Origin: Lacticaseibacillus paracasei subsp. paracasei
GTDB lineage: Bacteria; Bacillota; Bacilli; Lactobacillales; Lactobacillaceae
Assembly (NCBI RefSeq): GCF_000829035.1
Contig: NZ_AP012541.1
Location: 1,674,001 to 1,738,000, forward strand
Length of the DNA stretch: 64,000 nucleotides
Direction of reading: 5' to 3'
The notes under the pieces are model-generated. The model saw nothing but the letters and a program-made list of their open reading frames with translations. It did no database searches and was not told where the DNA came from. A program made the translations under genes and the position numbers. Numbering within the stretch: the first letter of the stretch is position 1; each line of letters starts with the position of its first letter. Positions 17,121 through 61,834 of the stretch are shown here, piece after piece.

Positions 17121-17238
17121 CGCGTTCGTAGGCGCAGAAACCTGCACATAAGAGCCTCAAGCCTCAATGGCCAAGGACCAGCCATTGAGGCTTGAGGCCA
17201 CTTATGTTCCGGTTTCTAAACGCGCCTACTCACGCTCT
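17121..17238. repeat. palindromic repeat A, copy 3
   Basis: Full copy: outer arms GCGTTCGTAGGCGC / GCGCCTACTCACGC, conserved GCAGAAACCTGCACATAA, core CTCAAGCCTCAATGGC / GCCATTGAGGCTTGAG, then GGTTTCTAAACGCGCC. It begins directly upstream of the yceD ribosome site. It forms a tandem pair, in the same orientation, with copy 4. Confidence 0.92.
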
Positions 17239-17246
17239 GCTCATAA

Positions 17247-17362
17247 ACGCGCTCACTGGCGCAGAAACCTGCGTGTAAGGACCTCAGGCGCAATGATCCA
17301 AGTTCGGTCATCACACGTGAGGACGCTTATGCTCCGGTTACTAAGCGCGCCAGTTCGCGCTC
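17247..17362. repeat. palindromic repeat A, copy 4
   Basis: Outer arms GCGCTCACTGGCGC / GCGCCAGTTCGCGC pair with two mismatches. The core is more diverged (CCTCAGGCGCAATGA / TCATCACACGTGAGG). It ends two bases from the tmcAL stop. Confidence 0.88.
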
Positions 17363-17363
17363 T

Positions 17364-18500
17364 TCACATCAGTGGTCGTCGGCCATAGTTCTGCTCAACG
17401 CCACCAATCGTTGTGATTAATCGATCCGCGCGATGGGTCATCGCGAGGACGCCATCCGGTGCAAGCATATCAGCACTGACCTTTGTGAGCAAGGGCCAGT
17501 CAAGATCATGCTTGACACTATTGAGATACTGCCGCCCAGTTGGCGTGAACCCTAAAACATGCAACTGCGGGTGTTGCCGTGCCTGATTAACCGCCGTAGC
17601 CGTCATATTCAAAGTAATGGCCAACGCTAGCCGTCGCAACCGCGCATAGGTATAGCGTTTCGATTTTACCTGCTTCAAAAAAGCAGTCATGTCTTGCGCG
17701 TCATCAATTTTTTGGGTGAAGCGATACTCTAACCCTTCTGCCATGGTTGCGACCAGCCGCAGTTCATTGAGCTCGGCTGTTTGCACGCGATATTTCAACC
17801 ACGGGAAAAATTGTGCCCAGCTATACTGTTGTTGCTTAGCATAAAAATCGACAAGCTCAGTAGGCACGATGGCTTCAACCGATTGATCAGCACGTAAATA
17901 CTCACGCACTGTCGAGGCGCTGGCGATGTTGGCTTGAATGCCTACTTCATCATGACCAATCCCACGACGCGCAAATGGTAACAATGTCATCGGCCTCTTC
18001 AACGCTAAATTAGCCTTGGCATAACTCAAGCCCAGCATAAAATTAGGATCAGTTTGGGTGATCCCAGCCGCTTTTGCATAAACAGCGTTGAGTTGCGTGG
18101 CGTATGTCTGCGTATAATCGCGAAATCCATCCTCAGTTAACGCTGCTGTCGCCAGTTTTTCAGCTAAATCCGCATAAGCAACTTCAGGATGCTCAGTACC
18201 AAAGGCTAAAGTGTTGACACCCATGGCGGCCAACGCGGTCACACCGGCTTCAGCAAACTGGTCAGCGGCCTGAACGGCTCCGGTCACCGGCAACTCAACG
18301 ACAATGTCTGCACCATGCTGCAAAGCCGCCTGCGCCCGAACCCATTTATCAAAAATAGCCGGCTCCCCGCGTTGTACATAGTTACCAGACATCACGACAA
18401 CGACAACATCTGCTTGCGCCAGCTTTCGCGCTTGTGCCAAGGCATATGCATGACCCGTATGAAATGGATTAAATTCAGCAATCATCCCAACTGTCTGCAT
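17364..18500 (-). CDS. tmcAL: tRNA(Met) cytidine acetate ligase TmcAL
   Basis: The 378-residue nucleotidyltransferase-fold protein (YlbM) makes N4-acetylcytidine at the wobble base of elongator tRNA-Met from acetate and ATP. The N-terminus [21 protein letters not shown] has the HxGH motif (HTGH), then [18 protein letters not shown] and FGTEHPE. GAGGCGGCC precedes the ATG at 18500. It closes the yqeG-yqeH-yhbY-nadD-yqeK-rsfS-yqeM series, as in other lactobacilli. Confidence 0.94.
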
Positions 18501-18535
18501 GGCCGCCTCCTAAACTGCAAGATCATCATGGTCAT

Positions 18536-19273
18536 TCATTTTTTCTTCGCATGAAAAAACCAGCGTGTGCTGTCCGCCTGAATTGGCTGACGGCCAAAAT
18601 CAGCTGTCACTTCAATTTTTTCAAACCCACTTGCGGTTAAGGCATCGAGATAGTCGTTAATCGGATAAGTTCGTTCTTTATGGGTTTCCGTAAGCGGTTT
18701 ATAGGCATCCAGGCCTTCATCATAAAGAAAGAACGTTAAATCATGCTCAACACTATGCGGCACCTCACCTACGAAACTGTGCCATAAAAAGGCAAAATCA
18801 TCGGTCTGATAATTGTACATATAACCAGGAAAAATCTGATCCATTTGATATAGCGAGTGCGCATCGAAAAGAAAGTCCCCGCCCGGCGGCAACAAAGATG
18901 CTACCTGAGTGAAGACTTGCTGAACTTCTTCAAGATTCGCCATATAACAAATGGAATCGTCAAAACATGTCACGACCGGAAACGGTGGTAAATCACTCAA
19001 ATCACGCATGTCGCCTTGAATAAGAGCCAGTTGGGCATCGGCTTCCTCAGCCTTTTCTGCCGCCAGCGACAACATTTCGTCCGATAAATCAAAGTCGGTC
19101 ACCTGATAGCCGGCTTGCGCCAACAACACAGCCAAGAAACCCGAACCGCCTGCCAACTCCAAGATAGGCTGACCAGCTGGTGCAATCCGCTTCGTGACAT
19201 AATCCCGCCACTGCGAATAGAGTGATTGATCCATCAGTTTGTCGTAAACTTCGGCAAACGTTTGATAAATCAT
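18536..19273 (-). CDS. yqeM: class I SAM-dependent methyltransferase (YqeM-like)
   Basis: The 245-residue protein starts MIYQTFAEVYDKLM and has motif I ILELAGGSGFLAVLLA, motif II DFDLSDEML and motif IV VVTCFDDSICY. The substrate is unknown. Its ATG overlaps the rsfS stop (ATGA), so it is coupled to the ribosome silencing factor. The position matches Bacillus yqeM, next to yqeL (rsfS). Confidence 0.88.
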   Translation of the reverse strand: MIYQTFAEVYDKLMDQSLYSQWRDYVTKRIAPAGQPILELAGGSGFLAVLLAQAGYQVTDFDLSDEMLSLAAEKAEEADAQLALIQGDMRDLSDLPPFPVVTCFDDSICYMANLEEVQQVFTQVASLLPPGGDFLFDAHSLYQMDQIFPGYMYNYQTDDFAFLWHSFVGEVPHSVEHDLTFFLYDEGLDAYKPLTETHKERTYPINDYLDALTASGFEKIEVTADFGRQPIQADSTRWFFHAKKK

Positions 19274-19629
19274 GCTTCAACCCACTGATCTACTTCAACC
19301 AGCGGTGCTTCCTGCCATAACTTTTCAAGGTTGTAGAATTGGCGTTCTTCTGGCATGAAGACGTGCACGACAACATCGTTCATGTCAATCAGCATCCATT
19401 TCGATCCTTTTTGGCCTTCAATACGACGAATCGTAACGCCGGCTTCTTCTTCTTTATCCTCAATTTCATCGACAATCGCTTGCACTTGTCGATCTGAAGT
19501 ACCGCTCATAATGACAAAGTAGTCAGCTAATAAACTGACACCGCGCATATCTAGCGCCACAATGTCTTCAGCACGCTTAGAATCACCTGCTTTGACAGCA
19601 ACTTCCAACATCGTTTTTGAATCAATCAT
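19270..19629 (-). CDS. rsfS: ribosomal silencing factor RsfS
   Basis: The 119-residue protein binds ribosomal protein L14 and blocks subunit joining in starved cells. Family motifs are clear: ALDMRGVSLLADYFVIMSGTSDRQVQAI, EGQKGSKWMLIDMNDVVVHVF and RQFYNLEKLW. AAAGGAG precedes the ATG, and three bases separate it from yqeK. Confidence 0.96.
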   Translation of the reverse strand: MIDSKTMLEVAVKAGDSKRAEDIVALDMRGVSLLADYFVIMSGTSDRQVQAIVDEIEDKEEEAGVTIRRIEGQKGSKWMLIDMNDVVVHVFMPEERQFYNLEKLWQEAPLVEVDQWVEA

Positions 19630-19632
19630 AAA

Positions 19633-20232
19633 TTACTCCTTTGTTAAGAATGCGTTATAAGTTAATAGTGTCTTTGGAAAAACGAGTTTGCGCGCACCAA
19701 TGAGATAAGTCAAGGTATTCTCCAATTCAATTCGACTAGCTTCTTCCAAGTTCGTTTCCGCTGCCTTACGCGCCTTTGCTTCAACCGGCAAAGATCGCGC
19801 CGGTTCGATAAAATCACCAACAAAAATGATTTCATCAAGCTTGGTCATTTCCGGATCACCTGTCGTGTGCCGCGCAATGGCAGTCAATACTTGCTTATCA
19901 GTAATGCCGACCTCTGTTTGAATGAAATGAACGCCGACAACACCATGCCAAACGCCGCGGCCATATTGCAACAAATCCGGATCGAAACCATCTTCAATAA
20001 TCACGCGTTTATAGGTCTCAACTGGAATCTCTTTACCATAATCGTGCAGTAAACCTGCTAAGCCTGCGCGATCAACGTCTTGATCAAAACGCTTGGCCAA
20101 TTCAATGGCAGTCGCTTCGACCCGCAAACAATGCTCATAACGCGGTTCATCGAGCCGATTGTGCAGCCGATTTAAAATTTCCTCACGACTTAAGCCATGT
20201 GTCAGACTTGCCGGATATTGATGTTCACTCAC
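19633..20232 (-). CDS. yqeK: YqeK-type HD hydrolase (symmetrical Ap4A hydrolase)
   Basis: The 199-residue HD-domain protein shows RYEHCLRVEATAIEL (first His), GLLHDYGKEIP (His-Asp) and IIFVGDFIEPAR (distal Asp). YqeK proteins hydrolyse Ap4A to two ADP. The GTG start at 20232 has GAGGG 8 bases upstream and overlaps the nadD stop by 8 bases; an ATG at 20262 would overlap nadD more and lacks a ribosome site. It sits in the conserved nadD-yqeK-rsfS order. Confidence 0.93.
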   Translation of the reverse strand: MSEHQYPASLTHGLSREEILNRLHNRLDEPRYEHCLRVEATAIELAKRFDQDVDRAGLAGLLHDYGKEIPVETYKRVIIEDGFDPDLLQYGRGVWHGVVGVHFIQTEVGITDKQVLTAIARHTTGDPEMTKLDEIIFVGDFIEPARSLPVEAKARKAAETNLEEASRIELENTLTYLIGARKLVFPKTLLTYNAFLTKE

Positions 20233-20875
20233 GATATAATCCCTCTTTTTGAATATAATCAATTACTGAATCAGGTACCAGATACTTCAAACTTCGGCCA
20301 TTTTCGACCCGATCACGCACATCAGTTGAGCTGATATCAATCAAAGGCGCATCCACCCACAGAATTGGATAACGACTAGCTGGCGTATACCCACGCCGTT
20401 TAACACCGACAAATGTCACCAATTTGACAAGTTCGTCAATGTGCGACCACTTTGGCAGATAATCCACCATATCGGCTCCAATAATGAAATAATAATCGGT
20501 GTCTGGATGTAACCGGTGCAGCTCCAATATCGTCTCATAAGTGTAGCTGACACCGCCTCGTCGGATTTCAATCCCTTCCAATCCAAAAAGCGGATTGTCC
20601 GCGATAGCTAGTTGCACCATATTCACACGATGCCGCGCTGAAATGGCAGTTTTAGTGTCGACATGCGGTGGTTGATTATCGGGCATAAAATAAACTTTTT
20701 CTAATCCCAACTCCGTGCCAGCTGCTTCGGCCATGATTAAATGACCGTTGTGAATCGGATTAAAAGTCCCACCAAATAGGCCAATCTGTTTTCGCCGATG
20801 CTGGCCAAGAATCTGCTCGCGCATTTCAACGGAGATCACGGGCTGGGTCAATGTGACACTCTGCGTCTTCTCCAT
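20225..20875 (-). CDS. nadD: nicotinate-nucleotide adenylyltransferase
   Basis: The 216-residue enzyme adenylates nicotinate mononucleotide in NAD synthesis. Motifs are IGLFGGTFNPIHNGHLIMA (HxGH), FMPDNQPPH, FIIGADMVDYLPKW and the C-terminal ISSTDVRDRV. The ATG at 20875 is preceded by AGAGGAT; about 25 residues precede the GGTFNP motif. It lies 10 bases after yhbY and overlaps yqeK. Confidence 0.95.
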   Translation of the reverse strand: MEKTQSVTLTQPVISVEMREQILGQHRRKQIGLFGGTFNPIHNGHLIMAEAAGTELGLEKVYFMPDNQPPHVDTKTAISARHRVNMVQLAIADNPLFGLEGIEIRRGGVSYTYETILELHRLHPDTDYYFIIGADMVDYLPKWSHIDELVKLVTFVGVKRRGYTPASRYPILWVDAPLIDISSTDVRDRVENGRSLKYLVPDSVIDYIQKEGLYRE

Positions 20876-20885
20876 AGTGATCCTC

Positions 20886-21197
20886 TTAGCGTGCGTTAAC
20901 TTCCAGGCTAATTTTTCGATGATCTTTCTTCTCAGCCTGCTTATAGACAACAACCGTGTGACCAATGATTTGGGCGATCTCCACACCTTGAATGGCCGCC
21001 TGTAAGGTATCGGCTACCTCTTGCGGTGTATCATCGGCAGCCGGCAGTAAACTGATTTTAACTAGTTCCCGCGCTTCGAGGGCATCTTTCACCCCAGCCA
21101 CAAACGTGTCACCTAAACCGTTCTTACCAACATTGATTAACGGCTTCGTGGTCATCGCCAAACTGCGTAAATATCGTTTCTGTTTCCCTGTTAACAT
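20886..21197 (-). CDS. yhbY: YhbY/YqeI-type ribosome-associated RNA-binding protein
   Basis: The 103-residue CRM-domain protein begins MLTGKQKRYLRSLAMTTKPLINVGKNGL, the classic family N-terminus, and contains the GxxG-like loop VGKNGLGD. It associates with pre-50S particles. AGAGGAG precedes the ATG. It follows yqeH after a 139-base gap and leads into nadD. Confidence 0.94.
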   Translation of the reverse strand: MLTGKQKRYLRSLAMTTKPLINVGKNGLGDTFVAGVKDALEARELVKISLLPAADDTPQEVADTLQAAIQGVEIAQIIGHTVVVYKQAEKKDHRKISLEVNAR

Positions 21198-21336
21198 CAA
21201 TAACGCTCCTCTAACCGTGTCGGCAGGCATAGCTCTTTAAACACAACTGGCTGAGTGCCTCGTTGTGGTCATGGATACTTACCGCCGTACACGTTTTACT
21301 TCGACATGATTAATTATGATACGAAAGATAGTTTTT

Positions 21337-22461
21337 CTAAATGAACGCACGCCGTAACAAAACATCCACACCTTTTGGCGCATAGCCGGCAACCGTAACA
21401 CCAGCAGGCACAGTGATCCAGCCTAACCCGGCGAAAACTAAGTCGGCTTTTTCCTTTGGGGTGAATTCAAACCGAACCAATGGCGGAAAGTCTGGCACTT
21501 CATCCGCCTGTGGTGGTGACAGTAAACCGCCCACATGCTTCTGATAGAAATCATCCGCATTTTCTAACTTGGTGCGATGCAGTGTCAACTGATTATCAGT
21601 GTAAATAACGAAACTGTTGCGACCTCCGCGAAGGTAATCAAATCGCGCTAAACCGCCAAGAAAAATAGTTTGGCCTTCATTCAATTGATAGGTTGCTGGC
21701 TTGATGACGGAAGTCGGTGAGACTAATTTTAAGTCTTTAGGGCCGACAAAGTGTGCCATCTGATGCCGATGAATGATCCCTGGTGTATCAATCAATGATT
21801 GGCCATCATCCAGCGGGATCATAATGCGATCCAACGTCGTTCCCGGAAAACGCGACGTGGTAATCAAATCCTCAACGCCAGTCAATTCTTTTATAATTCG
21901 ATTGATCAAAGTAGATTTACCAGTATTCGTCACGCCTACCACATAAACGTCTCGATGATCACGATATTTTTCAATGGCATCCAACAGCTCATCAACGCCA
22001 AAACCTTTTTTAGCGCTGGCCAGCATCGTGACTACCGGACGCAACCCTTGTGCCTTTGCCTGCTGCTGTAACCAATTCTTCAATCGATTCGGGTTAAGCG
22101 ACTTCGGCAACACATCGGCTTTGTTCCCGACAAGAATGACTGGGTTGTCACCCACAAAACGATGCAGTCCAGGGATGACACTGCCATTGAAATCAAAAAT
22201 ATCGATGACGTTGACAATCAACGCATTACTTTCACCGATGGCATTCAACAAGCGTAAAAAATCATCGTCCGTCAACGTCACCGGCGCAATTTCGTTGTAG
22301 TGCCGCAACCGAAAACAGCGCTGGCAATAAATCTCGTCATCAGGATCGGCCTTGCTTAAAGTGGCTTTTGGCAAGTATCCCGGCTTTTTGGGATCAGTTG
22401 TCTGCAAAATAGCGCCGCAGCCTATGCAACGGCGCTCTGTTTCAGTGTTCGTGGTATCCAT
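21337..22461 (-). CDS. yqeH: ribosome-biogenesis GTPase YqeH
   Basis: The 374-residue circularly permuted GTPase acts in 30S assembly. The N-terminal zinc finger has CIGCG and CQRCFRLRHYNE. The GTPase motifs occur in permuted order: VGNKAD (G4), SAKKG (G5), GVTNTGKSTLIN (G1), TTSRFPGTTL (G2) and DTPG (G3). AGGAGG precedes the ATG at 22461, 20 bases before the end of yqeG in another frame. Confidence 0.96.
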   Translation of the reverse strand: MDTTNTETERRCIGCGAILQTTDPKKPGYLPKATLSKADPDDEIYCQRCFRLRHYNEIAPVTLTDDDFLRLLNAIGESNALIVNVIDIFDFNGSVIPGLHRFVGDNPVILVGNKADVLPKSLNPNRLKNWLQQQAKAQGLRPVVTMLASAKKGFGVDELLDAIEKYRDHRDVYVVGVTNTGKSTLINRIIKELTGVEDLITTSRFPGTTLDRIMIPLDDGQSLIDTPGIIHRHQMAHFVGPKDLKLVSPTSVIKPATYQLNEGQTIFLGGLARFDYLRGGRNSFVIYTDNQLTLHRTKLENADDFYQKHVGGLLSPPQADEVPDFPPLVRFEFTPKEKADLVFAGLGWITVPAGVTVAGYAPKGVDVLLRRAFI

Positions 22462-22978
22462 GAATATCCTCCTGATAATCCAAATGCCGTTTCTTAGCGA
22501 GTGCTTTAAAAACGTAACCTTCAAAGTAACGATTAATTCTGGTGTTCCACGCATCACTTTGAACAAGTGGCTGGGTTAAAACGGTTCGCACACCAGCAAG
22601 ATTGCCTGCCCAAATATCGGTCAGCAATTGGTCGCCAACCATCACCACTTCAGATCGCTTAAGCCCTAATTGTTTGCGCGCTTTCGTGATACCCACAGGA
22701 AGCGGCTTCAAAGCACGAGCAACATATGCCACACCCAGCTTGGCCATTGCCTTGTGGATTCGATTTGCATTGTTATTCGAGACGACCACCACTTTAATCC
22801 CGCTATTGCGCAAGTCCGTCAGCCAGCGAGTCAGTGTTTCAGTGCCTTCGGGATGATCCCACGCCATCAACGTATTATCTAGATCCGTCAAGACCGCCTT
22901 AATCCCTTGTTGTTTCAAGCTGGCAGGTGTCAAACTGAAAATATTCGTTACCAGCCAAGTCGGCTCAAAAACTGCCAC
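22442..22978 (-). CDS. yqeG: YqeG-family HAD phosphatase
   Basis: The 178-residue HAD IIIA protein has the nucleophile motif VLTDLDNTLMAWD, motif II VVVSNNN, Lys in ITKARKQLGL and motif III MVGDQLLTDIWAGN. Substrate is unknown; some relatives are phosphatidylglycerophosphate phosphatases. The GTG at 22978 follows AGAGGGG at 9 bases. The ATG at 23005 lies just 8 bases downstream of a TATAAT box, so it would barely be transcribed. Confidence 0.9.
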   Translation of the reverse strand: MAVFEPTWLVTNIFSLTPASLKQQGIKAVLTDLDNTLMAWDHPEGTETLTRWLTDLRNSGIKVVVVSNNNANRIHKAMAKLGVAYVARALKPLPVGITKARKQLGLKRSEVVMVGDQLLTDIWAGNLAGVRTVLTQPLVQSDAWNTRINRYFEGYVFKALAKKRHLDYQEDIHGYHEH

Positions 22979-23013
22979 AAATCTTGTCCCCTCTCCGGTT
23001 TTCATATCCTTAT

Positions 23014-23019
23014 ATTATA
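23014..23019 (-). promoter_or_regulatory. -10 box of the yqeG-to-tmcAL operon
   Basis: A perfect TATAAT on the minus strand lies 35 bases upstream of the chosen GTG of yqeG. No good -35 box is visible. Confidence 0.5.
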
Positions 23020-23339
23020 GCCGAAAAGCGTGCCGAGCGCGAGTCAGCTTCATTGACAGGCGTGGCGAGCTCCAATCCTATTGATCCAAAGGTGTACGCC
23101 TTTGTCCGGGATGGTTCCGCGAGCTCTCTGCTTGCCATTAAAATTAAAGAAGCTAGTTAAGCTACTCTGTTTTCTTCCAACAGCAAAATCCTTCAGCAAT
23201 TATAAAAATTGCTATTTTTCCAAACAAGCGTCAAGCTTGAATGAAACCGTTATCTTTTTAAAGACGAAATCATCGCCTTATATGTCAAAACAAGGTACGA
23301 TTAGGTTGATAGCAGCGACTCGCATTCAGCGAATAAGAC
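23020..23339. other. intergenic gap between yqeG and the dioxygenase cluster
   Basis: About 320 bases without a supported gene between divergent transcription units. It holds a small stem AGCAATT / AAATTGCT followed by ATTTTTCC at 23195-23220, which could terminate plus-strand transcription. Nothing else is recognised; a 113-codon open frame here lacks a ribosome site and overlaps the real start of the next gene. Confidence 0.5.
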
Positions 23340-23359
23340 TGTTATACTTATTTTTAGTA
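23340..23359 (+). promoter_or_regulatory. extended -10 promoter with YodB-type operator
   Basis: TGTTATACT (23340-23348) is an extended -10 box; no good -35 box is seen. TACTTATTTTTAGTA (23345-23359) overlaps it and exactly matches TACT-N7-AGTA, the operator pattern I recall for Bacillus YodB. The first ribosome site follows within 15 bases, so a bound repressor would block initiation. Confidence 0.65.
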
Positions 23360-23384
23360 AGTGTATCAAGGAGGAGGCAATGTC

Positions 23385-25902: not shown

Positions 25903-25908
25903 AAGACT

Positions 25909-27591: not shown

Positions 27592-27625
27592 GCCTGCTCA
27601 TGGATTATTTACTTAAAAAACCGTA

Positions 27626-27795
27626 GTGCCAAGGCGGAGCAATCGTAGGCCAGATGGGGCTCAGCCGTGGAAACAACACAGCGACCGGGCTTTGTCGCTG
27701 ATGTTGTTAGGCGACTTCGAGACCGGTTTTTGGGCTCGAAGCGCCGTCACAGCGTTCCAGCCCCATCTGGCCGGAGATTGCGGAGTTTGGCACGG
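27626..27795 (-). repeat. MITE-like repeat B, copy 2
   Basis: About 170 bases, reverse complement of the copy at 8015-8187 with few differences, including the distinct central block GCGACTTCGAGACC. The ends begin AAGGCGGAGCAATCGTAGGC and, on the other strand, CCAAACTCCGCAATCTCCGG. The remaining gap to 27921 holds nothing recognised. Confidence 0.85.
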
Positions 27796-27921
27796 CAAGA
27801 AAGTTTTAGCCTAGCAACTTTCTACGATTATTCGGAATTTAATGAATCACAAGTCTTGCAAGGAAATTATGGCTCAGCCTCTTTTTTTAAATGTGACCCC
27901 ATGTTTTTCACTTATATACGC

Positions 27922-28648: not shown

Positions 28649-29164
28649 CTACTTCTCGGCACGCGGTGCAAGCATCAAGAACATGCTGCGGCCGTCCATC
28701 TTAGGATGCGTTTCAACAGCAGCAATTTCCTTAACGGCATCCGCCATCTGCTCAAGGACTTTGCGACCAAGGTCCTTATGCGTGATTGCCCGACCACGGA
28801 ACCGAACGCTGACTTTAACCTTGTCACCTTTTTCAAGGAACTTGGTGGCGTTCTTGAGTCGAGTATTGAAATCTGCTTCACCGATGGTTGGGCTTAGGCG
28901 GATCTCCTTGATGGTGACAGTCTTTTGTTTCTTCCGAGCATCGCGCTCTTTCTTTTGAAGCTCAAACCGGAATTTCCCGTAATCCATAATACGGGCAACC
29001 GGTGGCTTGGCATTAGGCGATACTAGGACAACATCTAAATTTGCATCCTCGGCAATGGCCAAGGCGTCACGCGTACTCTTAACGCCGAGCTGTTCACCGG
29101 TCTGGGAGATCAATCGAACTTCACGTGCGCGAATACTGTCATTGACTATCAGATCTCTTGCTAT
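28649..29164 (-). CDS. infC: translation initiation factor IF-3, ATA start
   Basis: The protein has 171 residues. The N-domain begins [19 protein letters not shown], and the C-domain contains [26 protein letters not shown] and [10 protein letters not shown]. Homology to other IF-3 proteins begins upstream of the first in-frame TTG (29113), and the only ribosome site, GGAGGTG, lies 7 bases before an in-frame ATA at 29164-29162. No ATG, GTG or TTG exists between. Non-standard starts on infC are known in bacteria and let IF-3 repress its own translation. It heads the L35-L20 operon. Confidence 0.93.
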
Positions 29165-33287: not shown

Positions 33288-33545
33288 CAAAAAATCCCTG
33301 ACATCTCTTAAGAGATATCAGGGACGATCAGTGATCGCGGTTCCACCCAGTTTGCCAACAGCACCGGCTGTTGGCCACTTAATTGACGCGTAACCTGCGT
33401 AACAGGGCCTTGCGGCAATCTCGAGAAGTGGTTCGGATCAGATCTTGCAAGACTTTCAGCCATGGTCTCGCTCTCTATTGGATGATCCTTTGTTGCTTCC
33501 GTCTTCGATAGCTTCATTGAAACACATTGCGCAGTCAGGTGCAAG
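33288..33545 (-). promoter_or_regulatory. T-box leader of thrS
   Basis: The minus strand carries GGGTGGAACCGCG (plus 33336-33348), then a terminator stem (ATCCCTGACATCTCTT pairing with AAGAGATATCAGGGA) and a T run at about 33288-33327. A weak TTGCAC-N17-TTCAAT promoter lies at 33516-33544. The sequence GAACCACT upstream contains Thr codons, but I cannot fix the specifier. Confidence 0.92.
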
Positions 33546-33560
33546 AGGTTTTCTGAAAAA

Positions 33561-33679
33561 GAGCGCTCTCTGGCGCGTTTAGGAACCGGAACATAAGGAC
33601 CTCAAGCCTCAATGGCGGGGCTTTGGCCATTTAGGCTTGAGGTCCTTATGTGCAGATTTCTGCGCCAGAGAGCGCGTTT
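33561..33679. repeat. palindromic repeat A, copy 5 (nearly perfect hairpin)
   Basis: The most complete palindrome of the family: outer arms GCTCTCTGGCGC / GCGCCAGAGAGC, then GGAACCGGAACATAAGGACC, core CTCAAGCCT / AGGCTTGAG and GGTCCTTATGTGCAGATTTC. Orientation is reversed relative to copies 2-4. It lies between the thrS leader and the end of dnaI. The 100 bases from 33680 to dnaI hold nothing recognised. Confidence 0.93.
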
Positions 33680-48187: not shown

Positions 48188-48961
48188 TTACCGACTCGCT
48201 TGTAAACATTCGAATTGATGCAAAACTTGCGCAACTTCTTCGAATCGTTGATGCGTGGCTGCTACCTTAATATCATGAAGCAAATGCAGATCACCGTACC
48301 AGTACAGTCGGCGTTTCAAATCCTCATCAAGTCGTGCGCCATAAGCATCCAAAAACTGGTGACTTGTGGCTGGACTGCCATAGTGGGCAAGTACATCCGC
48401 AAGATCATAAGCCGGATCGCCCAGCGCCACCTGCTCCCAGTCTACTAAATACAACCGACCGCCTGCCTGTAACCAATTCTTGTGGTTCAAATCGCCATGA
48501 CAAACCGTTTGCACATCCGTGTGCGGTAACCACTGCTTTAAATCGTGCAGAGCCGTTTTGATCTTAGGCTGCGCAGCCACATCGACTGGGAAATCCTGAA
48601 GTAGTGCGATTCGTAATTGCTCAGGATCAAGGACTTGACCGCCTACTTGACGTAATAACCGTTTTAACAGACTTGAGTGGTGCACCTGTGCCAACATTTT
48701 GGCCACGACTGGCAACATCATTTGTTGCCGCGTTAACGTTTCACCGTCCAGCCACTCTTGAGCGGTTAGCACGTCTCCCGTACTCACCCGCCGCGTCCAC
48801 AACAGCCGCGGGGTAATGTGTTCAACTGATAGTGCCGCAAGAAACGGCGAGGCATTGCGCTTAAGGAAATATTTTTGATTGGCATAAACCCCAAGAAACG
48901 CACTTCCGGTGGATCCACCTGCAGGCTGCAGGGACCACCCGGAATCTAATTCAAACTCCAT
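48188..48961 (-). CDS. ytmP: YtmP-like aminoglycoside-phosphotransferase-fold kinase
   Basis: The 257-residue APH/choline-kinase-fold protein has Lys in YFLKRNASPF, catalytic VCHGDLNHKNWL (Brenner motif) and metal-binding LYLVDWEQVALGDPAYDLA. The substrate is unknown, perhaps a sugar or amino alcohol. AAGGAGT precedes the ATG at 48961. Confidence 0.9.
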   Translation of the reverse strand: MEFELDSGWSLQPAGGSTGSAFLGVYANQKYFLKRNASPFLAALSVEHITPRLLWTRRVSTGDVLTAQEWLDGETLTRQQMMLPVVAKMLAQVHHSSLLKRLLRQVGGQVLDPEQLRIALLQDFPVDVAAQPKIKTALHDLKQWLPHTDVQTVCHGDLNHKNWLQAGGRLYLVDWEQVALGDPAYDLADVLAHYGSPATSHQFLDAYGARLDEDLKRRLYWYGDLHLLHDIKVAATHQRFEEVAQVLHQFECLQASR

Positions 48962-49074
48962 AGGCACTACTCCTTACTTCTGGCCGCAGGAATGATTCAC
49001 AACATCAAAAAGACACTCCCAGGCGCTCGTGCGTCCACGCTCAATATTACTAACTTGCGAAATTCACGTCAAGA

Positions 49075-49197
49075 GCAGAGCGCAAACTGGCCCGCTTAGA
49101 AACCGGAACATAAGCGGCCTTAAGCCTAAACGGCCGGTCTTTGGCCATTTAGGCTTAAGGTCCTTATGTGTAGGTTTCTGGGCCAGTTTGCGCGTTT
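49075..49197. repeat. palindromic repeat A, copy 6
   Basis: Outer arms GCGCAAACTGGCCC / GGGCCAGTTTGCGC pair perfectly; flanks TTAGAAACCGGAACATAA and TTATGTGTAGGTTTCTG; core CTTAAGCCTAAACGGCC / GGCCATTTAGGCTTAAG. First of a tandem set after ytmP. Confidence 0.93.
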
Positions 49198-49201
49198 AGG
49201 C

Positions 49202-49318
49202 AGAGTGTGAACTGGCGCGGTTAGAAACCGGAGCATAAGCTGCCACAAGTGCGATGGCTGTACTTTGACCATTGTGCTTGTGGTCCTTATGTGAAGGTTT
49301 CTGCGCCTGTGAGCGCGT
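49202..49318. repeat. palindromic repeat A, copy 7, with a truncated third unit to 49342
   Basis: Core CCACAAGTGCGATGG / CCATTGTGCTTGTGG, flanks TTAGAAACCGGAGCATAA and TTATGTGAAGGTTTCTGCGCC. The boundary AGGCAGAGTGTGAACTGGCG (49198-49217) recurs at 49320-49339 with one change, showing the start of a third unit that is cut off at the ecsB end. Confidence 0.92.
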
Positions 49319-49350
49319 TTAGGCAGAGTGCGAACTGGCGCATCTGTCAT

Positions 49351-50565
49351 TCAACGCATCGCATCATGTACCCTCAACCGAACACGTGCATACCATCGCG
49401 TGAAGCCCCAGACAAATGCAGTCCCGCCAACAAATATTGTCAACGCGGCGAGCCACTGCAGTCGGATCAACGCAACCAGTGTGAAAACAACCACTTCAAG
49501 CAGCAACAACGTCATCAAAAGCCGTTCAAAGGCCGCCAGTTTTTGATTTGGTGCTACTGGATACAAGTGCGTGAAGACAATTTCATCATATTGGAAGAAG
49601 AATGGCAACAGCTGAAAGCCAACCATATACAAGAATAGAATCGTAAAGCCAAGCAACAGCCACCACTGAGACAAAACCGCCACGATAATCGCGCCGATCA
49701 CCAGTAGCCGCAAGTACAACCCAAGATACTCACCGCCACGCAAAAAGCCGCGCAGATACAAGTATGCCCACGTCTCTGTCTTGCTTGGCTTAACCAACTT
49801 CAAAAGTGGATCGAGGTACCGGCGACGATGGACGCTATTGGCCAAACCTGGCACATCCGTGAATAGATTATAAAATCGATACAGTCGACCCATGCGATCT
49901 GCTTCGAGGTCAATTAAAGCTTCAAAATTCAATAACCCATCTGCCAACAAGGAACTTCGCAGCCATCTGAAGACCAAATTCAGAGTCAGCGCCACTAACA
50001 AGGCCACAGCCGGATGCAAGTAAAAACCTAGAAAAAGAGCTGCGAATGTGATGACAAGCAGTACAAGTCGTGGATGTCGCCAATTGATCGGCAGATGATA
50101 GCGCTGAAGCAATTGCAGCCACAAGTCGAGATCTTTGAATAACCACACAGCTAGTAGCAGCGTCACCGTCGCACTGATTGGATCTTGACCCAATTGTGCA
50201 AATAATGGCCACATCGCCAAAGCCGCAAAACCCAATAAAGTTGCCGGTAACATCATGCTGTATCGCCGTGCCTTCAACAAATAGTCACTGAAGGCCTCTG
50301 CTTTTGGCAGTAAGAAGACTTGATCGGGCGCCTGCGCCAACGTGGCTAACTGGCCAAGCGCGATTAAAGCCGTAAAAATGACAGCCAGACACAAAGCTAA
50401 CCACCAAGATGGTTGCAATGTTTTCACTAGCAGACTGTAGGCATATAAGGCACCACCAAAAAGTATTAGCAAGACCAGTACAAAATGGTCATTGAACACC
50501 AATCGCAAATATTTTTGCTGTTCTTGGACATGTTGTCGAAGTCGAGTTCGCCATAACGCGACCAT
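49351..50565 (-). CDS. ecsB: ABC transporter permease EcsB
   Basis: The 404-residue integral membrane protein has about 8-10 hydrophobic segments in three groups and no soluble domain. Its N-terminus MVALWRTRLRQHVQEQQKYLRLVFNDHFVLVLLILFGGALYAYS matches EcsB. It pairs with EcsA, whose stop overlaps its start (TAATG). In Bacillus the system affects intramembrane proteolysis by RasP, secretion and competence. Confidence 0.92.
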   Translation of the reverse strand: MVALWRTRLRQHVQEQQKYLRLVFNDHFVLVLLILFGGALYAYSLLVKTLQPSWWLALCLAVIFTALIALGQLATLAQAPDQVFLLPKAEAFSDYLLKARRYSMMLPATLLGFAALAMWPLFAQLGQDPISATVTLLLAVWLFKDLDLWLQLLQRYHLPINWRHPRLVLLVITFAALFLGFYLHPAVALLVALTLNLVFRWLRSSLLADGLLNFEALIDLEADRMGRLYRFYNLFTDVPGLANSVHRRRYLDPLLKLVKPSKTETWAYLYLRGFLRGGEYLGLYLRLLVIGAIIVAVLSQWWLLLGFTILFLYMVGFQLLPFFFQYDEIVFTHLYPVAPNQKLAAFERLLMTLLLLEVVVFTLVALIRLQWLAALTIFVGGTAFVWGFTRWYARVRLRVHDAMR

Positions 50566-54403: not shown

Positions 54404-54431
54404 CTTTTCCTTGAATTTTCACACTACTTAA

Positions 54432-54726: not shown

Positions 54727-54739
54727 CAATCACCAGTCA

Positions 54740-55084: not shown

Positions 55085-55105
55085 ACTTTACCTCACTTTT
55101 TGAGC

Positions 55106-57148: not shown

Positions 57149-57259
57149 TTCCGTCCTCCTAATGTGAATCTTGTTTATTGTAGCATAGGCGACAACCGCC
57201 AAAATTTCATCGACATCTTTTTAAGCAAACTTTATGGTCAAATGAATTGAGGAAATCAC

Positions 57260-58093
57260 TTGTTGTTTCAAACTTCTGCACGCGCCACGCTGCCCACCAG
57301 CCTTCGTGATCAACTTCAAGCATGGTTGATACCACGTAAACGGCAACACCAATTGCGCGTTGCCAAAACAATTTTAGTTAATGGTCATTATCGTAATTTT
57401 AATGAAAAAGTACAGCCTAGTGATGTTATCACGATGACTTATGATGAACCCACGCCACTTGCCTACGTTCCGGAAACGCCGGCCCTCACAATTCATTATG
57501 AAGATGATGATCTACTCATTGTCGATAAGCCGGCTGGTATGAAAACTCACCCAAACTTACCAGGCGAAACCGGTACCTTAATGAACCAGGCAGCCGCTTA
57601 TCTGGCCCCTTTTCCGGCGTTAATTACCCATCGGCTAGATATGGCGACCAGTGGTTTATTGGTCATCGCGAAGAACCCTTTAACGCAAGCCATCATTAAC
57701 CGACAGTTGGCTCTTAAAACCATGCATCGGGATTATATAGCGTTAGTACCGCAGGGAATTGCGGCCAGTGGCACCATAACGGCTCCGATTGGGCATGATC
57801 CTGATGATCAGCGTAAACGCATGATTAGACCGGACGGGGCATCGGCCATTACTCATTTTCGCCGGATCGCAGAAACGTCAACAACTGCGACGGTTGCGCT
57901 CAGACTCGAAACCGGCCGCACCCATCAAATTCGGGTACATTTAGCTAGCATTGGCTATCCAATCCTAGGTGATCCGCTTTATGCCCCTGATCAGACAACC
58001 TATCAGCGCATGTATCTGCACGCCTTTCAGGTTCGCTTCACAAAGCCGCTATCAGACACAACGTTGACGGTGACCAGTCCCCTGCCTTTTTGA
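57260..58093 (+). CDS. RluD/RluA-family RNA pseudouridine synthase
   Basis: The 277-residue protein has an S4-like N-terminal region (about 10-60) and the catalytic domain with LLIVDKPAGMKTHP, HRLDMATSGLLVIAKN (catalytic Asp) and GRTHQIRVHLASIGYPILGDPLY. The target RNA is unknown. The start is TTG with GAGGAAAT upstream. It is divergent from the PBP. Confidence 0.92.
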   Translation: MLFQTSARATLPTSLRDQLQAWLIPRKRQHQLRVAKTILVNGHYRNFNEKVQPSDVITMTYDEPTPLAYVPETPALTIHYEDDDLLIVDKPAGMKTHPNLPGETGTLMNQAAAYLAPFPALITHRLDMATSGLLVIAKNPLTQAIINRQLALKTMHRDYIALVPQGIAASGTITAPIGHDPDDQRKRMIRPDGASAITHFRRIAETSTTATVALRLETGRTHQIRVHLASIGYPILGDPLYAPDQTTYQRMYLHAFQVRFTKPLSDTTLTVTSPLPF

Positions 58094-58159
58094 ACAATTT
58101 TGAGCCAAAGTAATGGCACATACCATGGCAAGCAGCGGGCCACTAATTGTGTGACAACG

Positions 58160-58205
58160 AAAAGAGCTGGGTTTGACAAGGTTGACCTTGTTGCCCAGCT
58201 CTTTT
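58160..58205. terminator. bidirectional terminator between rluD-like gene and argR
   Basis: Stem AAAAGAGCTGGG / CCCAGCTCTTTT with an inner hairpin GACAAGGT / ACCTTGT. Confidence 0.88.
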
Positions 58206-58226
58206 GCTTGTGATGTTGCCAGATGG

Positions 58227-58682
58227 TTACGAATTGAAGGCTTGCCGATAAGCCGCTTCAAACCATTTTGCCTGCTTCTCATCCGGGCTAATCACGACAA
58301 TCGTGTCATGACCAGCGATGGTGCCGACAACTTGCTCAAAACCGATGTCATCAATAATCGCTGCCAATAAATTGCCGTTGCTCGGTAACGTTTTGATCAC
58401 GTTCATGAAATGCACCCGAGTAATTGACAGCCCGACTTCGCGAATTGAGCGACCTAACCGTTCTAACTGGGACTCTGAAGAGCCGCGAAAAATGGTATAA
58501 CGTAACGTCCCGGTTGCGTCCTGCGATTTGACGATCTTCATCTCGCGAATGTCGCGCGAAATCGTGGCTTGCGTCGCATCAATACCAGCCGCTTTTAATG
58601 CTGCCAATAACTCTTCCTGCGTGGCGATTGGCTTTTGATTAATGATTCGTGTTAAGGCCGCTTGGCGTTCACTTTTATTCAT
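58227..58682 (-). CDS. argR: arginine repressor ArgR
   Basis: The 151-residue protein has the N-terminal winged helix (MNKSERQAALTRIINQ, ATQATISRDIREMKIVK) and the C-terminal hexamerisation/arginine domain ending GTIAGHDTIVVI...GFEQVVGT. It binds ARG boxes with arginine as corepressor. GGTGGAGG precedes the ATG at 58682; an in-frame GTG one codon earlier is closer to the site. It is co-directional with argS upstream, as is common in lactobacilli. Confidence 0.95.
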   Translation of the reverse strand: MNKSERQAALTRIINQKPIATQEELLAALKAAGIDATQATISRDIREMKIVKSQDATGTLRYTIFRGSSESQLERLGRSIREVGLSITRVHFMNVIKTLPSNGNLLAAIIDDIGFEQVVGTIAGHDTIVVISPDEKQAKWFEAAYRQAFNS

Positions 58683-58705
58683 CACATGGCCTCCACCATT
58701 ATTGT

Positions 58706-58820
58706 TGCGCGGGAGTCAGTCCAAGAGACATCGGCGTGTAAGCGGCCTTAGATGTGATGGCCGTACTTTGACCATTGTGACCAAAGTCCTTATGCGTAGG
58801 TGTCTGGACTGACGAGCGCG
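58706..58820. repeat. palindromic repeat A, copy 8
   Basis: Outer arms GAGTCAGTCCA / TGGACTGAC pair perfectly, unlike other copies in sequence; core GGCCTTAGATGTGATGG with CCATTGTGACCAAAGTCC is imperfect. It lies between argS and argR. Confidence 0.88.
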
Positions 58821-58852
58821 TTATCGTCACTGCCGGTTGCTGACGCGCAAGG

Positions 58853-60535
58853 TTACATTTCTTCTGGCGCACCGACACCCAACAGTTGCAGCGCATTTGT
58901 TAGCACTTGTGTCGTCGCCTTAACCATCGCCAATCGAGCTGGCAGCTCACTGTCCTCAACCAGCACTTTGACATTGGCATAATACTTATTGAAAGCTTTT
59001 GCCAAGCGTAGTGCATACTTAGCAATCACAGAAGGTTCATATTCCTTGGCTGCACGCAAGACCATGCTTGGGTAATCGCCAAGGGCGCGCAAAACGTCCC
59101 AAGCCGCTGGATCACTTAAAGCCACTTCAGGCGCCGGGTCAATCGCAGCCTTCCGCAAAATGCTATTAGCCCGCGCGTTCGTGTACTGTACATATGGACC
59201 AGTTTCACCTTCAAAACGCACGACTTCTTCTAAGTTGAAGTCGAAGTTGTCTAAGCGTTCGTTCTTCAAGTCATGGAAAATGACGGCGCCGACACCGACT
59301 TCATGCGCAACTTTATCCGCATTTGGTAAATCGGGATGCTTTTCAGCAATTTGTTGTTTCGCCAGACCGACAGCATCGCGCAAAACATTTTCCAGTAAGA
59401 TAATGTTGCCTTTACGCGTTGACAACTTCTTGCCATTCGCCGTAATCAGCCCAAATGGAATGTGGTGAATATCATTCGCCCAGTCGTAACCCATTTCTAA
59501 CAAGACGGCTTTTAACTGCTGGAAGTGTTCGCGTTGTTCATTACCAACAACGTACAGGCTTTGAACAAAATGATAATGTTCTTTCCGGAAAATCGCAGCA
59601 GCGAGATCACGCGTCATATACAGCGTTGCGCCATCTGACTTCTTGATCAGCGCTGGATTCAAGTTATACGCACTCAAATCCACAATTTCGGCACCTTGAC
59701 TAGTTTTCAGCAAATGCTTGTCTTCAAGCCGCTTCACCACATCAGCCATTTTGTCATTATAAAAGGCTTCGCCATTGTAAGAATCAAAATCAACACCGAG
59801 AATTTTGTAAATTCGATTGAACTCAGCCAGTGAAACTGTGCGGAACCAGCGCCAAAGCGCAATGGCTTCTTCATCGCCATCTTCCAGCCGCTTAAACCAA
59901 GCACGGGCCTCATCGCCCAACTCGGGATTTGCCTCGGCCTTCTCATGAAATTCCACATAGTAATGCAATAGATTTTTGATCGGATCGGCTTTGACAGCGT
60001 CCTCGGATCCCCACTTCTTGTACGCCACAATCAGTTTACCAAATTGTGTGCCCCAGTCGCCAAGGTGATTAATTTTAATCGGTGTATACCCGATTTTGCT
60101 GAGAATGTTGGCTAAGGCATTGCCAATCACGGTTGAGCGTAAGTGCCCCATGGACATTGGTTTAGCAATGTTCGGGCTGCTCATGTCGATCGGTACATTC
60201 CCGCTGCCGATATTAGCATCACCATAATGCTCGCCAGCTTGCGCGATCACTTTCAACACATCGTGGGCAAAACTGATTTTATCCAGATAAAAGTTAACAT
60301 AGCCACCAACAGCCTTCACTTTTTCAAACGGGGTCACATCAATTTGACCGACCAAATCGCTCGCAATCATCTTTGGTGCGCGATGCATGATCTTCGCCAA
60401 GGAAAAGGTTGGAAAAGCATAATCTCCTAAGTCTGATGATTTGGGTGTTTCAATCAAGGACTTGATCGCAGCCGCGTCTAATTGACCGGCAAGTGCTGGT
60501 TCAAGTGCCTTAACAACAAGTTCTTTAAAATCCAT
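58853..60535 (-). CDS. argS: arginyl-tRNA synthetase
   Basis: The 560-residue class I enzyme has the N-terminal Add-1 domain, HIGH variant SPNIAKPMSMGHLRSTVIGNAL, KMSKS-like KKLSTRKGN, and a DALR C-terminal anticodon domain (FNKYYANVKVL). AGGAGGAAGTT precedes the ATG. It is controlled by the T-box upstream. Confidence 0.97.
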   Translation of the reverse strand: MDFKELVVKALEPALAGQLDAAAIKSLIETPKSSDLGDYAFPTFSLAKIMHRAPKMIASDLVGQIDVTPFEKVKAVGGYVNFYLDKISFAHDVLKVIAQAGEHYGDANIGSGNVPIDMSSPNIAKPMSMGHLRSTVIGNALANILSKIGYTPIKINHLGDWGTQFGKLIVAYKKWGSEDAVKADPIKNLLHYYVEFHEKAEANPELGDEARAWFKRLEDGDEEAIALWRWFRTVSLAEFNRIYKILGVDFDSYNGEAFYNDKMADVVKRLEDKHLLKTSQGAEIVDLSAYNLNPALIKKSDGATLYMTRDLAAAIFRKEHYHFVQSLYVVGNEQREHFQQLKAVLLEMGYDWANDIHHIPFGLITANGKKLSTRKGNIILLENVLRDAVGLAKQQIAEKHPDLPNADKVAHEVGVGAVIFHDLKNERLDNFDFNLEEVVRFEGETGPYVQYTNARANSILRKAAIDPAPEVALSDPAAWDVLRALGDYPSMVLRAAKEYEPSVIAKYALRLAKAFNKYYANVKVLVEDSELPARLAMVKATTQVLTNALQLLGVGAPEEM

Positions 60536-60559
60536 AACTTCCTCCTAAAATGATGATGC

Positions 60560-60752
60560 CACGAAAAAAGGACCCATCTCTCCTGTTCGAAGAGACGAGC
60601 CCTAGCCCGCGGTACCACTCTGCTTGACAATATGTCCACTCAAAGCACTGATTCTCAAAAGCGCGCCATCAGGTCCGACGTGATCGTTTGCACTATCCGA
60701 TCTCACTAAGAACCGCCAACTGACCTTATTTCCTCTTTCTCACAGAACCTTA
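60560..60752 (-). promoter_or_regulatory. T-box leader of argS
   Basis: The minus strand contains AGAGTGGTACCGCGG (plus 60608-60622), then stem AGGGCTCGTCTCTTCG pairing with GGAGAGATGGGTCCT and TTTTTTCG. Upstream sequence of about 130 bases has AGTGAG and paired segments of stem I. The Arg specifier was not fixed. It begins a few bases after tRNA-Gly. Confidence 0.92.
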
Positions 60753-60755
60753 TAC

Positions 60756-60826
60756 AGCGGTCGACGAGAATCGAACTCGCGACACCAGCTTGGGAAGCTG
60801 GAGTTTTACCACTAAACTACGACCGC
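60756..60826 (-). tRNA. tRNA-Gly, anticodon CCC
   Basis: The 71-base cloverleaf has acceptor stem GCGGTCG / CGACCGC with discriminator T, D arm TAGTTTAGTGGTAAAAC, anticodon arm CCAGC-TTCCCAA-GCTGG (CCC) and T arm GCGAGTTCGATTCTCGT. CCA is not encoded: the sequence continues GTATAAGG. No terminator separates it from the argS T-box. Confidence 0.96.
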
Positions 60827-60841
60827 AAATCAACGGATATA

Positions 60842-60869
60842 AGTATATCACGAGGGCTACATTTTGCAA
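60842..60869 (-). promoter_or_regulatory. promoter of tRNA-Gly (and possibly argS)
   Basis: TTGCAA, 16 bases, TATACT on the minus strand, 16 bases upstream of the tRNA. Confidence 0.78.
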
Positions 60870-60940
60870 AGGTCATCAAAGGTGACTTTTTCTATGAATT
60901 TGATGAGAAAAAATCTTAAAAATGAGTACCGGCAATTTTC

Positions 60941-60968
60941 TTGTTAATGTTTCTCACCGTGCTATAAT
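60941..60968 (+). promoter_or_regulatory. promoter of the HicB-like gene
   Basis: TTGTTA, 16 bases, TATAAT, 24 bases upstream of the start. Confidence 0.78.
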
Positions 60969-60992
60969 ATTAGTAAAGAAGGAGTGGTCGAG

Positions 60993-61379
60993 ATGGCAAA
61001 AACGGGACGTCACTATTATTTCGTGGCGCGCAACGAGAAAACCAAAACAGGTTATCACATTAGTTTTCCAAATATTCCTAACGCTGAGGCAGTCGGGACA
61101 ACATACGAAGAGACCGTTTATTATTCATATCGGGTCTTGGCTGACTTCCTGAGCCATCTGCCAAAACAAGAAGCGGAAATTCGTGCCTACACGCTTTCCG
61201 ATATTCCGGATACGGTTTCCAGCAATGTTTTCTATTCATTGGTGAGCGTCACGCCTGACTTTGATCCGCACAAAATGGAAACACATTTTACCTTGCCACA
61301 AACACCGCCTGCCGATATTCGACAAAAAGCAGCTAAACTGGCTGGATTAGTGACGCCAAATGATAACTTGGCTTTGTAA
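60993..61379 (+). CDS. HicB-like antitoxin-family protein without HicA partner
   Basis: The 128-residue protein has a HicB-type RNase-H-like fold at the N-terminus: HYYFVARNEKTKTGYHISFPNIPNAEAVGTTYEETVYYSYRVLADFL. No ribbon-helix-helix or helix-turn-helix tail is evident; the C-terminus is ADIRQKAAKLAGLVTPND. No HicA-like toxin lies on either side, so it is orphan. GAAGGAGTGG precedes the ATG at 60993. Confidence 0.78.
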   Translation: MAKTGRHYYFVARNEKTKTGYHISFPNIPNAEAVGTTYEETVYYSYRVLADFLSHLPKQEAEIRAYTLSDIPDTVSSNVFYSLVSVTPDFDPHKMETHFTLPQTPPADIRQKAAKLAGLVTPNDNLAL

Positions 61380-61392
61380 CTAGGTATTCAAC

Positions 61393-61575
61393 ATGCAAAC
61401 TTTTCGAATGTTGTTGTTAGTTATTTTTCTTGTTGGCGTTGGGTTAGCTTTGATCGGCCTAGTAAGTTGGTTGATTGCCCTATTGCGACACCGCGAAACA
61501 AAACCGATGCGGCGACTGACTTGGCTGAGCGGCGGAGTGGCGCTTGCGGCGCTGATTGTCAACGCGTTTACGTAA
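61393..61575 (+). CDS. tiny two-helix membrane protein
   Basis: The 60-residue protein has two hydrophobic segments (about residues 6-31 and 42-58) joined by RHRETKPMRRL. I recognise no family. It lies 13 bases after the HicB-like gene, has AGGT before the ATG, and ends before a terminator, so it is likely real and cotranscribed. Confidence 0.6.
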   Translation: MQTFRMLLLVIFLVGVGLALIGLVSWLIALLRHRETKPMRRLTWLSGGVALAALIVNAFT

Positions 61576-61622
61576 ACAACTTTGATTTAAGCGATAATTC
61601 TTAAGTCATCATTTCAAGAAGA

Positions 61623-61649
61623 GCACTGCCAGTGATGGGAGTGTTTTTT
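61623..61649 (+). terminator. terminator after the small membrane protein gene
   Basis: Stem GCACTGCCA / TGGGAGTG followed by TTTTTTG. Confidence 0.8.
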
Positions 61650-61716
61650 GTTTGGGATTGCACGGAATGGTCGTGCAATCAAATCGAGAATGAAAATTGA
61701 ACGTTGTTGCTTCAAA

Positions 61717-61834
61717 AACGCGTTCGCTGCCGCAGAAACTGGTGTGTAAGGACCTTGGAAGCAATGACCAAAGCCCGGTCATCACGTCCAAGGCCGCTTA
61801 CACGCCGGTTTCTAAACGCCTCAGCTCACGCTCT
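61717..61834. repeat. palindromic repeat A, copy 9
   Basis: Outer arms GCGTTCGCTG / CAGCTCACGC, flanks CAGAAACTGGTGTGTAAGG and TTACACGCCGGTTTCTAAACG, core CCTTGGAAGCAATGACC / GGTCATCACGTCCAAGG. It lies about 70 bases upstream of pyrD. Confidence 0.92.

Follow-up and report, generated by a model that had tools for sequence, protein, structure and literature searches.

Several families of short palindromic repeats have been described in bacterial genomes. REP and REPIN sequences, which are moved by Y1 (RAYT) transposases, are high-copy-number extragenic imperfect palindromes with internal mismatches, alternative complementary residues in their stems, and a tendency to cluster, according to the available parts of two reports (PMC3116915, PMC3733652). 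NEMIS/Correia, RUP, and other bacterial miniature inverted-repeat transposable elements (MITEs) are nonautonomous units of about 100 to 170 nt that lie near genes and whose transcripts can fold; as described in the accessible sections of two sources, they are mostly TA ended and A+T rich and are flanked by target duplications (PMC2229807, PMC10969869). NEMIS/Correia-like RNA processing elements are marked by RNase III cleavage of their transcribed hairpins. Here, we describe a palindromic element of about 121 nt that is present in a 64,000-nt stretch of the Lacticaseibacillus paracasei subsp. paracasei genome (the window; positions 1674001 to 1738000 of contig C1; genome size, 3.02 Mb; window G+C content, 46.6%) and was noted there in an earlier survey of the same DNA (the original prediction). 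The palindrome family is real, large, and by all signs mobile, and it is best called a member of the nonautonomous palindromic repeats. The repeats are probably nonautonomous mobile palindromes with one preferred folded strand that occur in part of the order Lactobacillales.

The element shares size, nonautonomous character, proximity to genes, and the ability to fold with the MITEs, but no target duplication was seen at the one clean insertion site, and its stems vary whereas its loops are constant. YPAL/RU-2 of Yersinia resembles it in not being A+T rich and in having targets at or beside a dyad symmetry; it differs in its taxon and in its target duplications of 3 to 26 bp, as far as its description in the available part of the source allows comparison (PMC2229807). 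Efa-1 of Enterococcus faecalis is palindromic too, but it consists of two hairpins and measures about 163 nt by its description in the portion of the source at hand (PMC2267715).

Copy number and distribution of the element

A covariance model (CM) was made from 36 host copies and used to scan the window and other genomes. In the host genome, at least 150 copies matched the CM from end to end, with an E value of 1e-15 for the weakest copy listed. The original prediction would have lost its footing if the nine copies that it named had been the only ones; the family proved far larger and extends to other genera. Integron attC sites belong to a cassette array with an integrase; the host copies listed occupy 120 loci (95 single copies, 20 pairs, and 5 triples), which are dispersed over both strands. 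Three of these copies (L191, L210, and L244, at positions 261824, 822165, and 2608764 of G000:C1) are identical, as are their flanks. They lie directly after the 3' end of the 23S rRNA gene, in apparent 23S-5S rRNA spacers as judged by eye from the rRNA ends. These three copies were considered as recent insertions and rejected, being rRNA-operon copies with identical flanks.

The following counts include the host, and the larger searches used stricter filters, in which weak matches were lost. Matches were found in 18 of 41 genomes in the sample of relatives. The family sample, in which up to 10 copies per genome were scored, had matches in 97 of 350 genomes, representing 21 of 40 genera. In the sample of the order Lactobacillales, 20 of 295 genomes matched; they belong to 12 of 74 genera and carry four different family labels. 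None of the 397 genomes besides the host in the phylum sample matched. An exact 24-nt pattern of the element, searched in a named genome collection that may leave out near records of the host's own genome, gave 27 stretches, all from Lacticaseibacillus (L. zeae, L. chiayiensis, and L. suilingensis). Plasmid matches came from 29 records, comprising 14 from Lactiplantibacillus, 9 from Pediococcus, 4 from Lacticaseibacillus, and 1 each from Lactococcus and Limosilactobacillus. No match to a phage collection was obtained by blastn, and none was found in viral contigs with one exact pattern.

The family appears to be new to Rfam and to the literature that could be searched. At gathering scores, Rfam models recognized only a tRNA in the window, and nothing was recognized at an E value of 1 or lower over positions 48900 to 49500. 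A literature search that included sequence strings and reached a minority of subscription papers and preprints revealed no description of the repeat. A large repeat family (at least 150 copies) resides in operon-like spacers and rRNA operons without an Rfam match.

Structure and covariation of the element

The strand designated the A strand runs from AGAG/TGAGCGTGA to CGCGTTT/A and forms a long hairpin. It begins with AGAG (or TGAG) and CGTGA and continues through helix 1, G-NTT, helix 2, GGA, and helix 3, usually followed by a bulged base. The long helix 4 and its loop follow, and the strand returns via GCA, GA, and CGCGTTT (or GTTA). The variable helices are interrupted by conserved unpaired letters: a G-A/G-A tandem mismatch, the NTT bulge, an internal loop formed by GGA and GCA, and, as a rule, a single bulged base. 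Two end types were distinguished among the 150 host copies listed: 113 start with AGAG and 29 with TGAG, and the 3' end is CGCGTTT or CGCGTTA in 134. Five strands from four copies gave RNA fold z-scores of -5.3 to -12.5.

Covariation of the stems between copies, as claimed in the original prediction, was confirmed. In the 36 host copies, 95.6% of the cells were paired, both sides had changed in 24 of 46 pairs, and the covariation score was 0.293, compared to 0.143 ± 0.006 for shuffled and at most 0.066 for slid alignments. The corresponding set from other genomes and plasmids comprised 31 rows, of which 30 were distinct and six were reverse-strand re-calls; 96.5% of its cells were paired, and both sides had changed in 40 of 46 pairs. 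The score of this second set was 0.773, compared to 0.211 ± 0.011 shuffled and at most 0.116 slid; both sets of controls consist of shuffles and slides and take no account of the kinship (tree) of the copies. The rows from other genomes and plasmids are matches to the model, so their pairing leans toward it, yet many of their helices use different letters.

The most constant letters of the element are the unpaired, G-A-rich loop letters. In 25 A-strand rows from other genomes, the expected letter was present in 23 rows at G8, 23 at A9, 25 at G18, 23 at each T of the TT bulge, 24, 24, and 22 at GGA, 24, 20, and 24 at GCA, and 25 at each T of the terminal TT. We infer that a protein may recognize the folded A strand, either as RNA or as single-stranded DNA, through these constant unpaired letters, in which case any helix sequence would serve. 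Recognition of the loop letters with a free helix would explain compensatory change among the propagating lineages.

Decay of settled copies and fold-back rewriting

Wobble pairs were counted at the 46 pairs in 116 copies, with five reverse-strand re-calls dropped. Five wobble-rich pairs contained 274 G-U and 8 A-C pairs, and no single pair anywhere had more than 8 A-C. With these five pairs, which were picked from the data, set aside, the other 41 contained 111 G-U and 104 A-C pairs, as is expected of neutral decay. Because G-U and A-C are about equally frequent in these 41 pairs, no selection on the fold could be detected in copies that have settled. Single settled copies show no sign of upkeep as RNA, whereas the propagating lineages seem to be folded on the A strand. 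Of the two readings offered in the original prediction, selection on the fold is not supported for settled copies, and a process that keeps palindromes is visible in some of them.

These counts bear on the explanation that the repeats are cis-acting RNA elements kept for a local function, such as RNase III sites, mRNA stabilizers, or attenuators in operon spacers. Their folds are very stable, and copies lie in operon-like spacers, including that of a phosphotransferase system (PTS) operon, and between 23S and 5S rRNA genes. However, G-U is not preferred over A-C in 41 of 46 pairs, the copies have no preferred orientation relative to genes, their sites differ between species, and internal deletions separate near-identical plasmids. 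A cis-acting role is therefore very unlikely as the explanation of the family.

Covariation might also stem solely from fold-back copying at the DNA level (quasi-palindrome template switching), in which one arm is rewritten from the other and the fold itself was never selected. According to one report, RNA hairpins can arise and be kept up through template switching (PMC8794818). In the plasmid copy L165, the 5' arm is the exact reverse complement of the 3' arm, whereas the sister copy L179 keeps mismatches. Twenty of 207 copies, including the window copy at 33560, have lost at least one asymmetric feature by exact erasure, which runs in either direction; ordinary point mutation could explain some of these 20 cases. 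The rewriting in L165 and in the erased copies resembles the template-switch process as described in the accessible parts of two reports (PMC8794818, PMC7202029). G-C/C-G swaps with few intermediates are in line with it as well; pair 16-129 occurs in the two forms 58 and 41 times among 121 rows that include five reverse re-calls.

Site comparisons between two relatives of the host, G005 and G010, point in the same direction. At sites 1086 and 13716, several compensated pairs differ while at least one flank is almost unchanged, and the core at site 1086 differs widely yet pairs, with flanks that are nearly the same. Conversion from a second copy of the element would account for these differences, as would rewriting of the copy at its site. 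At sites 19113 and 61738, the element content is nearly identical. Fold-back copying by itself should, however, remove the internal loops and bulges as well. Exact erasure was absent from 187 of 207 copies, and in the rows from other genomes no letters are more constant than those of the loops. In addition, the frequent wobble on the A strand is G-U and never A-C. Fold-back copying is accordingly a possible but unlikely sole source of the covariation. In the preferred reading of the repeats as mobile palindromes, copies would decay after insertion without detectable selection on the fold, undergo partial deletion, and sometimes be rewritten by fold-back template switching. The family offers a natural test bed in which RNA selection and fold-back copying, as possible origins of compensatory change, could be told apart.

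Polarity of placement and arrays

All 25 arrays in the host list are head to tail, 27 of 30 gaps measure 3 to 6 nt, and each of the 25 arrays is of a single end type (AGAG or TGAG). Nine of 28 pairs of array neighbors are about 90% identical or more and resemble tandem duplicates; the remaining 19 are 65 to 84% identical, values that also occur among same-type pairs that are not neighbors (median, 0.773).

The two ends of the element differ in their surroundings. A terminator-like hairpin with a T-run adjoins the A-strand 5' end in 22 of 84 and the 3' end in 0 of 73 nontandem ends. This count includes orthologous sites, which are not independent, and omits one 3' call (L025), whose end lies inside an array. 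Random 45-mers contained such a structure in 18 of 1,000 cases. In the host alone, the 5' end was concerned in 23 of 120 and the 3' end in 6 of 119 cases (Fisher P = 0.0012); by eye, the six 3' calls, all of which were counted, comprise three array remnants, two sites before start codons, and one genuine-looking terminator, and some of the 23 5' calls are also weak. Copies of the TGAG type have T at 64 to 82% in positions -8 to -4 of 28 flanks, and such a T-tract is part of a terminator or, for some of the copies, a ribosome-binding site read on the complementary strand. Counted on open reading frames (ORFs) rather than on annotated genes, the interval from -9 to +2 around the 5' end contains the end of the upstream gene in 11 of 39 cases, and the corresponding interval at the 3' end contains the end of a downstream gene read toward it in 0 of 45.

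The original prediction placed all copies in gaps between genes of the same direction. This holds for the eight full-length copies of the window with mechanically called ORFs but not for the wider sample, in which 69 of 102 copies with both neighbors called are codirectional, 29 divergent, and 4 convergent. The strands of the loci in the two contig halves, with an assumed origin position, are 29 plus and 27 minus and 26 plus and 38 minus.

These data suggest polar insertion, in which the 5' end would be placed just behind the 3' ends of genes (stop codons, T-tracts, and terminators). The 5' end may also be inserted behind the 3' end of an earlier copy, which would generate head-to-tail arrays with gaps mostly of 3 to 6 nt, and some array units may be plain tandem duplicates. 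The element's own 3' end likewise offers a hairpin and T's, so that the placement at terminators and the formation of arrays could both follow from a single rule.

A preference for stem-loop targets is reported for EFAR of Enterococcus faecalis, which belongs to the same order as the host. The present element has its 5' end at terminator-like hairpins in the proportion given above, but its sole empty site is not obviously a stem-loop. Group IIC introns likewise recognize a DNA stem-loop 5' of the insertion site; they are ribozymes with a maturase according to the available part of the source (PMC10190682), and nothing of this kind was seen in the present element. If the element were a satellite retroelement, dependent on a borrowed reverse transcriptase and directed, like group IIC introns, to sites with a stem-loop and a T-tract, this could account for the placement behind a hairpin and T-run, for the placement behind the element's own hairpin end, and for the frequent wobble that is always G-U. 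However, no RVT_1 (PF00078) match was found in the host, G005, or G042, and no intron-like domain was seen, which makes such a satellite highly improbable.

Site differences between species and plasmids

G005 and G010 are syntenic relatives that are mostly 75 to 90% identical to the window. Four of the six full-length window loci (3901, 17118/17245, 33560, and 49077/49202, but not 58706 and 61716) were aligned to them, and no CM match was detected in either relative at these four loci. Both relatives have a short spacer without elements at the 17118/17245 site and lack the element at the 33560 site, and they carry elements of their own near window positions 33290 and 48060.

A filled and an empty form of one site were found on plasmids. 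The spacer beside a multicopper oxidase gene is filled in six aligned records (L090, L164, L166, L173, L174, and L175) and empty in three records with similar flanks (L171, L172, and L176). The element lies between CAG and the ribosome-binding site, without a target duplication. At the remaining places, target duplications could not be read, because the spacers are too diverged from those of the syntenic species or the sites are secondarily changed.

Other plasmid sites differ by internal changes. The spacer between the PTS IID and DUF956 genes occurs with two units and a cut third, with one unit, or with a cut unit alone, and three further plasmid sites have the core deleted. The plasmid copies L093, L177, L178, L180, and L182 have internal hairpin deletions with ends that are still recognizable.

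Several observations weigh against mobile palindromes with a preferred folded strand. The multicopper oxidase site is the sole clean filled/empty site; two plasmid PTS sites were rejected as empty sites, one being a hairpin deletion with a remnant and the other an array change, and the C107 site in G005 holds a remnant as well. A decayed remnant at the 3901 site in G005 and G010 is conceivable, and the remnant at 2661 may be shared, since weak matches occur at the matching place in G005 (E value, 0.32) and G010 (E value, 0.14). Turnover is slow, because G005 and G010, which are mostly about 95% identical to each other, have 10 of 11 element loci in common over about 260 kb; three of the ten common loci lie in a segment of 98 to 99.9% identity, and the eleventh is a remnant in G005. 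Over all 46 pairs, G-U (385) exceeds A-C (112), and their equality appears only in the 41 pairs left after the data-derived choice of five. The G-U excess in the 25 A-strand rows from other genomes (70 G-U and 5 A-C) comes from rows selected by a G-U-tolerant model. Array neighbors, taken together, resemble each other somewhat more than other pairs do (median, 0.795 versus 0.773; P = 0.002), orthologous sites enter the terminator count, and orientation relative to the neighboring genes is otherwise balanced (31 ++ and 38 --). In 1.39 Mb, no split or autonomous copy was found by short-word BLAST, with isolated halves (66 of the 5' and 52 of the 3' kind) left aside, and the search for a mobilizing enzyme, in which the host gave neither a Y1 nor a reverse transcriptase match, identified none.

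Search for a mobilizing enzyme

The original prediction pointed to a Y1 (RAYT) transposase gene, a lead for which no support was found. No match to PF01797 (Y1) was found in the host (G000), with its at least 150 copies, or in G005, G003, G004, and G020, which carry at least 20 copies each. A Y1 match was present in 13 of 30 genomes of the genus, by inspection without relation to copy number.

REP/REPIN-type repeats moved by such a transposase would be intergenic, palindromic, imperfect hairpins of high copy number, and the present element, in which no coding capacity was seen, shares these features. In contrast to REP and REPIN, it is a single hairpin of about 121 nt, its host arrays are only head to tail, and its consensus ends (AGAG/TGAG and CGCGTTT/CGCGTTA in the host) lack the GTAG (or CGTC) foot of the REP palindrome. 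Together with the Y1-free genomes, this disfavors mobilization by a RAYT, which we consider scarcely credible. A MITE of a DDE insertion sequence would have terminal inverted repeats in common with an autonomous element; in the present family, terminal inverted repeats are limited to an imperfect pairing of the element's ends.

The polar placement of the element at gene ends, its head-to-tail arrays, and its combination of covarying helices with constant loops suggest an insertion mechanism beyond a resident RAYT or reverse transcriptase. A bolder and quite doubtful proposal is that the family is a bacterial counterpart of short interspersed elements (SINEs). A hairpin RNA or single-stranded DNA would be recognized by its conserved G-A loops, with nearly all helix positions free, and insertion would place its 5' end after the 3' end of a transcription unit or of an earlier copy of the element. 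The element would have spread through the order and its plasmids by means of a class of enzymes that has so far not been associated with palindromic repeats.

Copies in the window

Eight window copies match the CM from end to end, the poorest with an E value of 7.4e-17. The ninth copy of the original prediction, at 2661, is a degenerate remnant (2643..2737, minus strand) with a CM E value of 0.064, in which a core palindrome is retained in the fold and the outer arms are unrecognizable; the arms that had been quoted for copies 5, 6, and 8 were all located in the window sequence. At the place matching window positions 2700 to 2740, G005 (L107, about 4900 to 6430) contains more than 1 kb that is absent from the window and from G010 and looks like an insertion sequence by eye.

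On the minus strand, a diverged single copy lies at 3901..4020 (92.0 bits; E value, 1.5e-20) and another single copy at 61716..61834 (103.9 bits). A head-to-tail pair on the same strand consists of an upstream member at 17245..17363 (101.2 bits), which begins immediately after the TGA stop codon of the ORF at 17364..18500 (minus strand), and a downstream member at 17118..17238 (140.1 bits), which ends beside the apparent ribosome-binding site of the next gene.

The remaining copies are on the plus strand. The copy at 33560..33679 (122.6 bits; row G000:1707560+ of the asymmetry test) has lost its bulge and outer G-A mismatches, where its 5' arm is now complementary to the 3' arm. A second head-to-tail pair comprises 49077..49197 (134.7 bits; RNA fold z-score, -12.5) and 49202..49320 (107.6 bits), separated by the 4-nt gap AGGC. 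The copy at 58706..58823 has the lowest score of the eight (77.5 bits; the poorest E value given above; fold z-score, -5.3).

A further partial match to the element core, at 28756 to 28782, lies inside an ORF that by eye resembles a coding stretch for initiation factor 3; this match is chance-like. The window also contains a second, apparently unrelated repeat family, an inverted pair at 8014 to 8188 and 27625 to 27796 with pieces that are 96 to 100% complementary. The query segment of this second family has many more partial matches in G005 and G010.

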